A DNA stretch of 64,000 nt from Acinetobacter tandoii DSM 14970 = CIP 107469. GTDB lineage: Bacteria; Pseudomonadota; Gammaproteobacteria; Pseudomonadales; Moraxellaceae. The notes beneath the pieces are model-generated. The model was not told the origin of the DNA and did no database searches. It was given only the letters and a program-made list of their open reading frames with translations. Position numbers and translations under genes: made by a program. The DNA lies in assembly GCF_000400735.1 (NCBI RefSeq), contig NZ_KE007367.1:135146-199145 (forward strand), written 5' to 3'. This document shows, in pieces, positions 50,940-55,297 of the stretch (its first letter is position 1; every line of letters starts with the position of its first letter).

Positions 50940-52400
50940 TCAAGACCAGAACGGTTTAATTTTCTTGAAGGCTTTGAGTTGCTTATCAATGTGTTTGAGT
51001 TGTTGCTTTTCCTGTTGATTGAGCCAGTCTATCGCACAGTGAATTTCTTCATTTTCAGGCAGTTCATGGAAAAATTGCTCGGCAACCAAAAGATCATTGT
51101 ATTGCCCCAAGAGTTCTTGAATTGGTTTAATTGCTTTGAGGTAATCTTTCACTGCTTTATTGCTGTATAGGCTACGCACAAACTCAATGTTGTAACGTAA
51201 GTGTTTGAAGCGTTTACGGAGTTTGTGCTTTTCTTCATCTTCTAGTTGTGAAAAATGACCAATGTCATCTGCAATGCGTTGATGGGTTTTCTTTAAGTTT
51301 TTCTCAGCATATTTTAAAAACGGTTTTTTCTTTTTATTTTTGGGACTCTGTTCTGAAGTCATATAGTCCATCAGTTCTAATATTAATTGATTGGTTTCGG
51401 TGGACTGGAAAATCCACATCACCTGATTGTGATAACTCTCGGCAGTTGGAATTTCTAAGTGTGAACAGCCCGCTTGCTGTAACTGGGGCAGAAGGGTTTC
51501 ACGAATGGCATCGGTATCACGCGCATTGCCTAAAGATTGAAATATGATACGGAGCTGAGCTGCCCAGTGTGGAGAGATGTCATGTACCAAGTTGGCATAA
51601 CTTTTTAAAGCACTACGCATACGCCGTATTGCGACACGTGCCTGATGTATGTGTTCGCTATTATAAAAGCCACTGGCGAGGGCAGTTGCATTTGGCAAGA
51701 GATGCTTAAAGGTATTATTTAAGATCGCATGTACAGCGGCATTCGATGTCATGGCTTGATCTAAAACGACAGGCTCCGCATATTGTGGCAGTAACATATC
51801 CTGTTGTTGTAGATGTAAATCCCCTCGTTGTGATTTACTTCGTGTGTCTAGCCAAAGTTGATATTTATTCATCCATGGCTCTATGCAGCGAATTAAGTCA
51901 TGAATGGAACCTTGTACCAGTTCAAACTCAATTTCAAATATTCTTAATTTTTCTTGTTGAAAGACCAAGTGTCCAATGTCGAGGCAAACTTCAATTTCAG
52001 ACTGATTAAACAGCAGAATTTTTGATATCCGTTCAACATCGGTAGAAAATTTGATTTTAAAATTTTGTGATGCATCTTCAGTGGTGAAAAGAGCAGGTAG
52101 TTCGTCTATATGATCCTGATACAGGGCTAAATTGAGTTTAGGCTGTTTTTTCTTACCAAGGTCAGATTCAAATTCAAAACGCTCGATATGTTGCTCGGTT
52201 TTGTATTTTAAGGTTTGAATCCAGTGTCCTTGTTCTAAGCGTAATCGTAGGGCAATCGACTGTTGCGCCAATTGAAAATCTGGAGTGTCGTAGTAGTGGG
52301 CGAGTAGGCGTTGCTTATATACCTTAGAGGCACAGAAGTCTTGATAAATCATGTCCTGAAAAGCATCTGGAATCTGAAATTTGAGTTCAATTTCTGACAT
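50940..52400 (-). CDS. CYTH-CHAD protein with intact CHAD motifs
   Basis: The N-terminal CYTH domain (about residues 1-200) has the ExExK motif in MSEIELKFQIP, the basic strand LRLRLEQGHWIQTLK and acidic EIEFELVQG, all expected for a triphosphate-tunnel hydrolase such as E. coli YgiF. The CHAD domain (about 215-480) keeps the polyphosphate-binding His/Arg signature in HIHQARVAIRRMRSALK and HKLRKRFKHLRYNIEF. The expected activity is inorganic triphosphatase with polyphosphate binding, in the cytoplasm. It follows a paralogue in the same direction by 176 bp. Confidence 0.85.
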   Translation of the reverse strand: MSEIELKFQIPDAFQDMIYQDFCASKVYKQRLLAHYYDTPDFQLAQQSIALRLRLEQGHWIQTLKYKTEQHIERFEFESDLGKKKQPKLNLALYQDHIDELPALFTTEDASQNFKIKFSTDVERISKILLFNQSEIEVCLDIGHLVFQQEKLRIFEIEFELVQGSIHDLIRCIEPWMNKYQLWLDTRSKSQRGDLHLQQQDMLLPQYAEPVVLDQAMTSNAAVHAILNNTFKHLLPNATALASGFYNSEHIHQARVAIRRMRSALKSYANLVHDISPHWAAQLRIIFQSLGNARDTDAIRETLLPQLQQAGCSHLEIPTAESYHNQVMWIFQSTETNQLILELMDYMTSEQSPKNKKKKPFLKYAEKNLKKTHQRIADDIGHFSQLEDEEKHKLRKRFKHLRYNIEFVRSLYSNKAVKDYLKAIKPIQELLGQYNDLLVAEQFFHELPENEEIHCAIDWLNQQEKQQLKHIDKQLKAFKKIKPFWS

Positions 52401-52576
52401 GTTCTAGCCCTCGCACTGGAGTTTTTAAAATTATTTTAATGGCGCTAAATTTATATCTTGGCTAAAGTGACTGAAGAAGTCCAGTAAAAATATAATTTGT
52501 CTATTTTTAGAAGTAGAAATGAAGTACATCCACAAGCTTTGCCCGTGGATGTTGGTCTGTTTGTATGTCTAAGGGC

Positions 52577-54040
52577 TTAGAATTTAAGGAACTTACGACT
52601 TACCATAAATTGTTCAGTCGCATCTAAAAGCGCTTGAGCGTACACTTCTTGTTTGGCAGTTAACCAACCTAAAACAAACCAGTCGCTTGCCTCTAATTCG
52701 GTTTGCTGTATATAGGCAGCAGATGAACTGAGCGTCAAGTATTCTTCAGCAGCTTGGTGTGCTTCATTTAATGCTTTGCTATATTTTTGCAGGTTTTTTA
52801 CATCATAAATTGAAGTAAGAATTGGGAAGCTGAATTTGAGTTCGCGAATGCGTTGAGAGAGCTGTTCTAAACTTTCAAAATTAGTAACGTCGGTTTCTGA
52901 AAGCTGCTCATGAATCTGTTTATACTGCTGTTGCAAGGTGTTCTGCGCGTAGCCTTTTAAATCTAACTCTTGCGTGGCAGTACTGCTTTGTAAGCTAAAC
53001 ATTAATAGCTCTAAAAAGTGATGTACATTGAGTGTTGAACGCACCAAATTATTCAGCTTTTCTTGTGCATATAAAATATCCTTGGTTAGGCTTGCTGCTG
53101 TGGTTGGATTTTGCAACAACGCTCCTAAGGTGTTCTGCATATGTTCTAGTTGTTGTAAGTTTTCAAAATGATGTTTAAATGCTGCCAATTGATAGGCCCA
53201 TTTATCAGAAATATCCTTGCTCCACGTTTTAAATAAAGCCGAAGTTAAATAGAGATGGTCCAATGCTACATAAGCTTGCTCAAGATGTTCTTTTTCTGCA
53301 ACGCCTGCCGAGATGGCTGCAATATTTGGCAGTAAGTGTTGTAACTGTTGTGCAATGAGCGAACGGACATTGCAGTCGGCACTGTCTTTTTTCACCAGTT
53401 GAAATGCTTTGGCTTGCTTGGCTGGACTCACTTCTTGTTGAATTGAAAGTAAATGACCCATTTCAGCTTTACTGCGAACATCTAACCACAATTGGTATTT
53501 CTTGACCCACTCAAAACTAAAGGCAAGCAAAGACTGAATAGAACCTTGTTTGAGTTCAAACTCAACTTCGTGAACTTCTCTTTCTTCAGTTTCAGTGGCT
53601 AAGCGGCCAATATCGAGGCTGACTTCAATTTCTGCATCTTCGAAGTGAATCACACGATAAGTGCGCTGAATATCAGACTCAAATTGTAATTTTAATGAAG
53701 CAAACTGATCACCCAAAGCATTTTGCAAAATGGCTAATGCTTCAGGTTCATGTTGATAAATCGTTAAATCTAAAGCAGGAGCATGTTCAGAAATACCAAA
53801 ATCATGATTATGCTCAAAGCGGTGCAAATGGCTTTTTCCCGCTGCTTTTAAGGTTTGAACCCAATGCTCACCTTCAAGGCGTAAGCGTAGGGCAACACCA
53901 TGTTGTGAAAGTAATTTATCTGGCGTGTCAAAGTATTTGGCTTTCAGATGAATCAAATTTGATTTTTTGGGGTCTAAGGCTTTAAGGAGCATTGTTCTTT
54001 TTGCTGTAGGAATTTGAAATTTTAATTCAACTTCAATCAT
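52577..54040 (-). CDS. CYTH-CHAD paralogue with degenerate CHAD domain
   Basis: The CYTH half is intact: MIEVELKFQIP, ALRLRLEGEHWVQTLK and EVEFELKQG are present. The CHAD half aligns in length and helices with its downstream neighbour but has lost the conserved His/Arg ladder. The first motif reads EHLEQAYVALDHLYLTSAL and the second LEQLSQRIRELKFSF. It probably keeps triphosphate hydrolysis but not CHAD-type polyphosphate binding. The tandem copies arose by an old duplication, since identity between them is modest. Confidence 0.8.
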   Translation of the reverse strand: MIEVELKFQIPTAKRTMLLKALDPKKSNLIHLKAKYFDTPDKLLSQHGVALRLRLEGEHWVQTLKAAGKSHLHRFEHNHDFGISEHAPALDLTIYQHEPEALAILQNALGDQFASLKLQFESDIQRTYRVIHFEDAEIEVSLDIGRLATETEEREVHEVEFELKQGSIQSLLAFSFEWVKKYQLWLDVRSKAEMGHLLSIQQEVSPAKQAKAFQLVKKDSADCNVRSLIAQQLQHLLPNIAAISAGVAEKEHLEQAYVALDHLYLTSALFKTWSKDISDKWAYQLAAFKHHFENLQQLEHMQNTLGALLQNPTTAASLTKDILYAQEKLNNLVRSTLNVHHFLELLMFSLQSSTATQELDLKGYAQNTLQQQYKQIHEQLSETDVTNFESLEQLSQRIRELKFSFPILTSIYDVKNLQKYSKALNEAHQAAEEYLTLSSSAAYIQQTELEASDWFVLGWLTAKQEVYAQALLDATEQFMVSRKFLKF

Positions 54041-54408
54041 AAATTTGCCTTAGATTACGGTTCAAAAAAAGGGAGCAGCTTTTATTAAAAACTGGTGTGG
54101 CTCTTTGGTATTAAATTTTAGCTGAAAAATTCTATGCTGTACGCGTTGATGAGAGAAATTATCGGCAGTTAACTATGCCAAATGGAGGTAAAAAAATACT
54201 GCCATTAAAAATCCAAGGGTTATTACATTTTTAAATGTACAGACAGAAAGATTGTCGGATTTGTAATGAAATAGCAATGATAAAATGAGGTTTGCCAATT
54301 TTTCAGCAGGAACATGAGCAAAAAGTAATTGACCAATTGAATATTACGCCCAATGATATTGGTGCAAAATCAGAAAACATAATTCAAAACAATCAGGATG
54401 ATTTGAAT
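54041..54408. other. Gap ahead of the DUF962 pseudogene
   Basis: About 370 bp. From 54292 a frame in phase with the pseudogene's N-terminus is open (QQEHEQKVIDQLNITPND), so the original gene may have begun further upstream than 54409. No terminator or RNA is seen. Confidence 0.35.
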
Positions 54409-54791
54409 ATGAATGCAAATGTTCAAGCAAATAGAAGTGTACAGCACCTTCAATCGCCGCAATTACCCATTCGAAATTATAATGAATTTTATCTTTTTAT
54501 TTAACCGAGCACCGTAATATCACCAGCAGACGCCTGCATGTGTTAGGAAGTGTCATCGGTGGATATTGGATAGCAAAAGCAATTCGCCATCGTAAACCTA
54601 AGTATGTTTTGTATGGTTTAGTGCCTGGTTATGCATGTGCATGGATTGGACACTTTGTCTATGAAAAGAATAAACCTGCGTCTTTCAAACAGCCATTTTA
54701 CAGTTTTATCTCGGACTGGCGTATGTTGTCTGATATTGTGCGAGGCAACTTGAGTTTAAAGTGTCGTTCATTAGATAAAATTCCAAGTTAA
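54409..54791 (+). pseudogene. DUF962 (Mpo1-like) membrane protein, frameshifted
   Basis: The first frame runs from ATG 54409 through PIRNYNEFY. The second frame continues FYLTEHRNITSRRLHVLGS, GLVPGYACAWIGHFVYEKNK and FKQPFYSFISDWRMLSDIVR, ending IPS. Together they form a complete DUF962/Mpo1-like protein, whose family start is EFYPFYLxEHRN. Here the Pro codon is short by one C at about 54493 (TTTTATCTTTTT), which breaks the frame. Inserting one C restores an open gene of about 128 codons. The damage is recent or a sequence error, because no other lesion is visible. Confidence 0.75.
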
Positions 54792-55003
54792 TTTTCATTC
54801 TTATTAAAGTGTATTTATCTAATAATATTTGATTGAAAATTTAATATAACTATATGTTATAAATTAGCTTTTAGTCTTATATGAAGTATATTTTTCAAAT
54901 ATTTTTAATAAAAATGGCTAGGATGTTTTATCCTTCTGATGTAGTATAAGTTTCGGATTTTTAGATAGTCTGGTATACCACTAAGACATTACAAGTTTCC
55001 AAT

Positions 55004-55034
55004 GCCTAGAGTGACCTTTCTCTGGGCTTTTTTT
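55004..55034 (+). terminator. Intrinsic terminator in intergenic region
   Basis: GCCTAGAG and CTCTGGGC form an 8-bp stem with one G-T pair and an 8-nt loop, followed by seven T. It lies 212 bp after the DUF962 pseudogene and may end that transcript's 3' region or a separate small RNA. Confidence 0.75.
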
Positions 55035-55088
55035 ATTTTGAATGTAAATAAAGTAACTCGATTAAAAAATTGAGGCTATACATTGAAA

Positions 55089-55146
55089 GACTCTCTAATT
55101 TTTTGCCCACATTGCCCGTGTGGTTAGTGCAAAAAATTAGAGAGTC
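55089..55146. repeat. Nested palindrome with 17-bp outer arms
   Basis: The outer arms GACTCTCTAATTTTTTG (55089-55105) and CAAAAAATTAGAGAGTC (55130-55146) are exact reverse complements. The 24-nt loop contains an inner stem CCACA/TGTGG (55107-55111, 55119-55123) around TTGCCCG. It would fold into a long two-tier hairpin in DNA or RNA. Confidence 0.75.
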
Positions 55147-55148
55147 AT

Positions 55149-55187
55149 GTTTATTTTCAGTTATTGTTATAATTATTGAAAATAAAC
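55149..55187. repeat. 11-bp inverted repeat next to nested palindrome
   Basis: GTTTATTTTCA and TGAAAATAAAC are perfect arms around a 17-nt AT-rich loop, beginning 2 bp after the preceding palindrome. Confidence 0.6.
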
Positions 55188-55261
55188 AAAATCTTTCGGT
55201 TTTATCGTTGTATTTTATTGCTTTTATGACTTTATTAAACCGTGATTTTGATACTTGCTCT

Positions 55262-55284
55262 ATCCCTAGAACTAGGGATTTTTG
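55262..55284 (+). terminator. Hairpin with T-run downstream of gloB
   Basis: ATCCCTAG and CTAGGGAT pair around AA, followed by TTTTTG on the plus strand. It points away from the gloB transcript and so would end a plus-strand transcript from the preceding structured gap. Confidence 0.55.
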
Positions 55285-55297
55285 TTAAATACAAAAA

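Follow-up and report, generated by a model that had tools for sequence, protein, structure and literature searches.

In Escherichia coli YgiF, a CYTH-CHAD inorganic triphosphatase (PDB 5A60/5A61), a catalytic CYTH tunnel and a helical CHAD domain reside in one protein. According to the available text of the papers describing it, YgiF cleaves inorganic triphosphate but neither ATP nor polyphosphate of ~65 units (PMC3440374), and the affinity of its CHAD domain for polyphosphate lies in the micromolar range (PMC6537752). Here we analyse a 64,000-nucleotide stretch of the genome of Acinetobacter tandoii DSM 14970 (contig NZ_KE007367.1; the whole stretch is called the window) that encodes two tandem proteins of this kind, P0002 upstream and P0001 downstream. 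Both have the domain order of YgiF and are similar to it in size, and the metal-binding glutamates of YgiF align with those of P0002; however, P0002 has neither the ladder of residues associated with polyphosphate binding nor a Pfam CHAD match. We consider it likely that the two copies have split the duties of a bifunctional ancestor.

Further points of comparison are provided by the CHAD domains CtCHAD, RcCHAD and SsCHAD: P0001 shares their ladder and P0002 shares their fold, although P0002 has 0/10 ladder residues and a net acidic helical domain. Within the genus, CavB of A. baumannii AB5075 (487 amino acids) matches the single ladder-bearing copies of other Acinetobacter in domains and size, and its kinship to the proteins aligned here is judged from its description. 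The available part of PMC11410210 describes one CYTH-CHAD gene in this strain, cavB, whose product was annotated as a second cyclase beside CavA, made no cyclic AMP and was dispensable for growth and biofilm formation under the conditions used. As to what CYTH-CHAD enzymes do for the cell, YgiF and Ralstonia CHAD knockouts showed no apparent phenotype according to the accessible text of PMC6537752. Among the papers listed in literature searches, judged by titles and the beginnings of abstracts and in literature that largely did not cover subscription papers, there was none on ladder-less CHAD paralogues.

Two tandem copies, one of them without the CHAD ladder

The window had initially been annotated as carrying tandem CYTH paralogues at 50940-54040, and two open reading frames were found there on the minus strand, head to tail and separated by a spacer of 176 bp, with the motifs quoted in the initial annotation exact to the letter. 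To compare the copies, the CYTH site was scored at eight positions (the octad, given for P0002 below). Its glutamates and tunnel arginine are named in the available part of PMC4641920, the source for the roles of the CYTH motif residues (ExExK, tunnel arginines and lysine, metal-binding glutamates), and were mapped by hand on an alignment to 5A60. The CHAD ladder was scored at ten positions, in P0001 H252, R255, R259, R294, R395, K399, R402, Y403, N435 and D436; of these, H252, R255, R259, R294 and R402/Y403 correspond by alignment and spacing to CtCHAD His253, Arg256, Arg260, Arg296 and Arg418/Tyr419. The features of the locus are as follows.

52577..54040, minus strand: upstream gene P0002, 487 amino acids, predicted CYTH/TTM enzyme with a ladder-less CHAD-fold domain
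53447..54040, minus strand: P0002 CYTH (TTM) domain, residues 1-198, with E3, E5, K7, R52, R54, K65, E160 and E162 kept
52601..53380, minus strand: P0002 CHAD-fold helical domain, residues 221-480, without the basic ladder (model; fold match to 6qv5/6qv7; Pfam CHAD negative)
53234..53293, minus strand: P0002 helix 250-269, in which the HxxRxxxR ladder residues are replaced by E, Y and D (residue reading and model)
50940..52400, minus strand: downstream gene P0001, 486 amino acids, CYTH-CHAD protein bearing the ladder
51813..52400, minus strand: P0001 CYTH (TTM) domain, residues 1-196, octad kept in this genome (Pfam and residue reading)
50967..51746, minus strand: P0001 CHAD domain, residues 219-478, ladder 10/10 (Pfam, residue reading and model)
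51588..51659, minus strand: P0001 helix 248-271 with ladder residues H252, R255 and R259 (alignment, residue reading and model)
52526..52552, minus strand: terminator-like intergenic hairpin with a 12-pair stem, kept in five close relatives with changed bases

P0001 and P0002 are 33% identical over 448 aligned columns. Both retain the CYTH catalytic residues, reading EEKRRKEE at the octad, and only the downstream copy retains the CHAD ladder (10/10 in P0001, 0/10 in P0002), as had been noted from the sequence. At the ladder positions P0001 reads HRRRRKRYND and P0002 reads EYDQSRKFLT, with no identical residue and two exchanges between lysine and arginine. In the available part of PMC6537752, polyphosphate binding by SsCHAD was no longer detectable once the residues equivalent to the first four ladder positions had all been changed to alanine; in P0002 these four positions are Glu, Tyr, Asp and Gln.

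Pfam searches gave the same division. P0001 matched both CYTH (PF01928, 52.2 bits) and CHAD (PF05235, 151.4 bits), and P0002 matched CYTH at 69.0 bits (cut-off 23.2); no CHAD match to P0002 was listed up to an E-value of 1, in a search whose program filters discard most matches above ~0.1. Neither protein matched an NCBIfam model at an E-value of 0.01. Across the whole genome, the Pfam profile search matched CYTH twice and CHAD once. The best named match for the pair was A. kanungonis, with protein identities of 95% and 94%.

AlphaFold2 models of both proteins (mean pLDDT 92.4 for P0001 and 89.0 for P0002) found full-length YgiF as their best PDB match, with a Z-score of 31.0 and a root-mean-square deviation (rmsd) of 3.7 over 413 residues for P0001 and a Z-score of 28.7 and rmsd of 4.2 over 410 residues for P0002. 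The helical part of P0002 matched RcCHAD (6qv5; Z 24.7, rmsd 3.0 over 278 residues), 6qv7 (Z 24.1) and the polyphosphate complex 6qva (Z 23.4). A profile of the ladder-less clade compared by sequence with CHAD structures listed none at an E-value of 0.1, and the likeness was recovered by fold comparison alone. The modelled P0002 domain is thus a CHAD fold of two four-helix bundles from which the polyphosphate site is gone. The initial annotation had called this domain eroded: the loss of the ladder is confirmed, but the term is misleading, as decay does not describe a domain whose fold is kept (Z 24.7) and whose sequence is well conserved, and the change is better called remodelling.

Retention and loss of the two sites across Acinetobacter

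The survey covered 149 Acinetobacter genomes, including that of A. tandoii itself. Upstream-type copies were defined by at least 55% identity to P0002, independently of the ladder, and were found in 79/149 genomes, all at 61% identity or more. The remaining copies were divided into ladder copies and deeper ladder-less relatives by a threshold of at least 6/10 ladder residues, so that the resulting split into 118 and 12 is partly definitional; ladder counts were bimodal, at 9-10 or 0-2. Residue counts omitted proteins shorter than 250 amino acids or truncated by the end of a locus, which dropped the upstream-type copies of four genomes (G046, G075, G113 and G134) and left 75/79 read at full length. 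At the loci of these four, two of which are partial, the motifs are altered in the same way, and the octad is likewise intact in the copies of G046 and G075. One deeper relative (G050) has only 276 amino acids, without most of the helical domain.

Upstream-type copies had a complete octad in 75/75 cases and a complete ladder in 0/75, keeping at most 2/10 ladder positions, and the deeper ladder-less relatives had a complete octad in 12/12 and a complete ladder in 0/12. Whether orthologues of the upstream gene keep the ladder had been set beforehand as a check, and none did in either group. The missing ladder of P0002 is thus no accident of a single genome. The octad is therefore complete in all 87 ladder-less copies (75 + 12). 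Conversely, the ladder was complete in 117 of the 118 ladder copies, the exception being a single R402Y substitution. Helical-domain charge followed the same partition, with median net values of -7 in the 75 upstream-type copies, -5.5 in the 12 deeper relatives and +2 in the 118 ladder copies.

The octad of the ladder copies differed with their company: it was complete in 50/50 unpaired copies and broken in 12 of the 68 found beside a ladder-less copy (G005, G019, G039, G055, G063, G073, G092, G101, G126, G127, G132 and G139). These 12 fall into six separate clades, for which parsimony requires five changes. A Fisher test of CYTH loss against pairing gave p = 0.0012, a value that ignores kinship. 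If they are read rightly, the 12 broken-octad copies would work like phosins, i.e. stand-alone CHAD proteins such as Streptomyces PptA (6rn5); unlike phosins, they retain a full-length, degenerate CYTH domain. Two extreme cases, L164 (genome G126) and L165 (genome G019), read YNKSDQES and LTIHYNSS at the octad, where hardly any catalytic residue survives, with a complete CHAD ladder; these proteins may bind polyphosphate while their tunnel domain is dead.

The family was represented in 141/149 genomes and absent from 8. In 64 genomes the upstream type was accompanied by a ladder copy, on the same strand and with the ladder-less gene first in 64/64, at spacings of 77-2256 bp (400 bp or less in 59/64). 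Four genomes combined a deeper ladder-less relative with an unlinked ladder copy, and single types were found in 15 genomes with the upstream type alone, 8 with a deeper ladder-less relative alone and 50 with a ladder copy alone. CHAD matches above the cut-off were confined to 118 genomes (64 + 4 + 50), whereas the 23 genomes with a ladder-less copy only had none. In three of these 23, CHAD matches below the cut-off were seen, two of them in the upstream-type protein itself (G084 and G112) and one elsewhere (G094). Across the 149 genomes a single upstream-type copy exceeded the CHAD cut-off (G127, 38.5 bits), and there too the ladder is gone. At an E-value of 0.01, CHAD matched 2 of the 45 sequences in the ladder-less clade of P0002, and PF01928 matched 45/45 ladder-less sequences and 56/58 ladder sequences. 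One locus with the pair (L116) comes from a record titled Acinetobacter baumannii ACIN00150, whereas A. baumannii AB5075 is described with the single CYTH-CHAD gene cavB, and the title may be wrong.

Loss of polyphosphate synthesis was considered as a cause of ladder loss and rejected. PPK1 (PF02503) was found in 147/149 genomes, both misses being assemblies that are 64-65% complete, so ladder loss does not track the loss of polyphosphate synthesis. One PPK match (G076:C1:1480220-1480759) lies inside an open frame of 11336 amino acids, perhaps an oddity of assembly or masking.

Divergence, descent and the proposed division of duties

To compare the two copies directly, 52 genomes were used in which both were read and had an intact octad. 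Median Kimura distances between upstream copies were 0.331 in the CYTH domain and 0.374 in the helical domain; between downstream copies they were 0.892 and 0.763, i.e. 2.8 times and 2.0 times greater. Invariant positions numbered 77/198 upstream and 33/198 downstream in the CYTH domain, and 97/269 upstream and 38/270 downstream in the helical domain. The seemingly eroded upstream copy is the better conserved of the two. Pseudogene decay of the upstream copy was likewise rejected, given 75 full-length open reading frames and low nonsynonymous divergence among the closest relatives.

The ratio of CYTH to helical distance was 0.86 in upstream copies. Among ladder copies it was 0.66 in unpaired ones, 1.16 in paired ones with an intact octad and 1.68 in eight linked ones with a lost octad. 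Among close pairs, the ratio of nonsynonymous to synonymous divergence (dN/dS) of the helical domain was 0.034 upstream, 0.063 in paired ladder copies and 0.095 in unpaired ladder copies, in line with the distances; the CYTH values given below are not. However, dN/dS depends on the synonymous divergence of each part, and within the upstream gene the two halves are unequal in this respect; dN/dS was therefore given little weight and was not used as support for relaxation of the CYTH domain.

Trees were built from sequences below 90% identity (125 of 190 full-length proteins), and long branches were flagged on both. In the whole-protein tree, the upstream type (38 sequences) and the deeper ladder-less relatives (7) formed one branch (SH-aLRT 99) adjoining 38 paired ladder copies (support 85), with 18 unpaired ladder sequences and 2 ladder sequences from genomes with a deeper relative outside. 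The CYTH-only tree placed the upstream type in one group (99) and the paired ladder copies in another (98). Its free search did not recover the ladder-less sequences as one group, implying two changes, but a tree constrained to hold the 45 ladder-less sequences together scored better and was not rejected (p-AU 0.58). The idea that the ladder-less clade is an artefact of building a tree on the lost residues was accordingly set aside, since the CYTH-only data do not reject the grouping. Early duplication in Acinetobacter followed by losses would be the simplest account of these trees, which leave its timing unfixed.

The reading we favour, to which we assign a probability of roughly 0.6, is that an ancestral CYTH-CHAD gene was duplicated early in Acinetobacter and that the duties of its two domains then drifted apart, with P0002 acting as a triphosphatase and P0001 keeping polyphosphate binding. 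The ancestor would have been bifunctional, as E. coli YgiF is, combining a triphosphate-cleaving tunnel with a polyphosphate-binding helical domain. P0002, in which the tunnel residues are untouched, would be a dedicated triphosphatase whose CHAD fold became an acidic, well conserved helical module; this module has presumably lost polyphosphate binding and, instead of serving a partner, may now support the enzyme itself in its folding, dimer contact or regulation. P0001 would be the polyphosphate-binding member and, in this genome, has probably kept its catalytic ability as well. In several lineages, this genome excepted, the downstream copy has lost its catalytic residues and would have become a polyphosphate-binding protein. 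From the residues, predicted folds, distribution and relative divergence, we infer that the drift was a split of duties and not two unrelated changes.

Several observations weigh against this reading. Paired lineages make up 68% of the paired-plus-unpaired branch length in a tree of the CHAD domain, and the chance that all 5 or 6 CYTH-loss events would fall in paired lineages is 0.14 or 0.10; independent pairs are too few to reach significance. On these branch lengths the excess of CYTH loss in paired ladder copies is suggestive and unproven. In addition, both CYTH domains look active in this genome, and the faster evolution of the downstream copy, which affects both domains, may simply mean that it is less needed. 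The upstream copies of the eight linked genomes with a broken octad also have a raised CYTH to helical ratio (1.30), and close-pair dN/dS in the CYTH domain (0.087 upstream, 0.061 in paired and 0.053 in unpaired ladder copies) indicates little CYTH relaxation. Finally, other genera of the family were sampled through the best 28 of 48 CYTH proteins (L034-L063 except L049 and L052; 500-569 amino acids), a choice that may favour complete octads. The octad was complete in 28/28, and the ladder was complete in 9, one residue short in 2 and reduced to 6/10 or fewer in 17. A single CYTH match was found in each of these genomes, and none of the listed genomes of those genera has more than one CHAD match. 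Ladder loss is thus recurrent in the family and needs no duplicate, which weakens the case for a partner taking over the lost function. A division of labour, as first proposed for this pair, is partly supported, by the complementary residue patterns and by the absence of the ladder from upstream orthologues; the part of the argument that draws on CYTH loss is suggestive once branch lengths are considered.

Acinetobacter thus holds natural variants that keep the tunnel and have lost the CHAD site, keep the site and have lost the tunnel, or keep both, in species that nearly all have a polyphosphate kinase, and comparing them would reveal which half the cell selects for. A full-octad copy is present in every one of the 141 family-bearing genomes, 23 of which lack a ladder-bearing copy, and this distribution hints that the tunnel is the selected half. 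The ladder-less copy also provides a natural test case for the purpose of the polyphosphate-binding part. The names 'CHAD domain protein' and 'adenylate cyclase' should not be transferred to ladder-less copies.

Alternative accounts and the surrounding locus

A tentative alternative, clearly less probable than a split of duties, is that the upstream helical domain acquired a selected task of its own, be it binding a new ligand or partner or controlling the tunnel enzyme, with the CYTH domain kept to serve the new task and the neighbour turning into a pure polyphosphate binder. The excess of invariant helical positions upstream, the net acidic charge by residue count and clade-specific motifs such as LKFSFP would all fit this account, as would a substitution just after the CYTH domain, where 75/75 upstream-type copies have Met, Ile, Phe or Leu in place of an arginine; however, core packing alone can account for many of the invariant residues. 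Conservation and acidic charge are also compatible with the early suggestion that this CHAD domain may have been freed for a new partner. The genes that recur beside the pair do not single out such a partner. A 214-amino-acid protein (hyp214), a DUF3144 protein and an M16 peptidase were found, among the loci that were read, at many upstream-only, paired and ladder-only loci, so that all these locus types probably derive from one ancestral locus. Since the same neighbours flank the genes of ladder-only genomes, no gene specific to the upstream copy emerged among the recurring neighbours of the window, the only ones traced.

It is somewhat more doubtful still that the ladder was simply lost by relaxation, being easily shed wherever polyphosphate binding is not needed, and that the duplicate is incidental. 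The reduced ladders beside intact octads in other genera are what this would predict, and the YgiF and Ralstonia CHAD knockouts without apparent phenotype (in the accessible text of PMC6537752) are consistent with it. Relaxation sits poorly, however, with the upstream helical domain diverging less than that of the ladder copy.

That the two proteins form one complex, in which the ladder copy carries the ladder-less enzyme to polyphosphate granules, is unlikely. The constant tandem order on one strand in 64/149 genomes, mostly at short spacing, and the loss of CYTH residues in 12/68 paired ladder copies would suit such an arrangement, and the initial annotation had proposed catalytic and targeting subunits. 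However, the 15 genomes with only the upstream type and the 8 with only a deeper relative have no CHAD match above the cut-off, the two kinds are unlinked in 4 genomes, divergence is 2.0-2.8 times faster in the downstream copy and 147/149 genomes have PPK1 in any case. Moreover, with the CYTH residues kept in both window copies, nothing visible marks either protein as serving for targeting alone, and a two-subunit machine made of P0001 and P0002 is improbable. The hairpin that separates the genes also counts against a complex. It lies just 3' of the upstream gene, has at least 12 pairs and is found at the same place in five relatives of the window (L064, L065, L066, L067 and L114), where the stem bases vary and the pairing is preserved, a pattern that suggests a terminator between the two genes.

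A class IV adenylate cyclase activity of one or both proteins, as in older CYTH annotation, is highly improbable: the CYTH part of the P0002 model does match CyaB-type cyclases (Z 13.9 and lower), but the best full-length structural match is YgiF, which the available text of PMC3440374 describes as a specific triphosphatase with cyclase activity undetected, and removal or return of A. baumannii CavB left cyclic AMP unchanged in the available part of PMC11410210.

Two minor observations concern the upstream gene and its surroundings. The substituted post-CYTH arginine corresponds to P0002 residue 194 (codon 53459-53461), just past the CYTH core, and the arginine is present in 50/50 unpaired ladder copies and 12/12 deeper relatives. 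A gap of 1.26 kb (54041-55297) that separates the upstream gene from an MBL-fold gene has no open reading frame of 90 amino acids or more; at the gathering score Rfam gave no match there or in the rest of the window. In L064, L065, L066, L067 and L114 the match positions imply a gap of comparable length.

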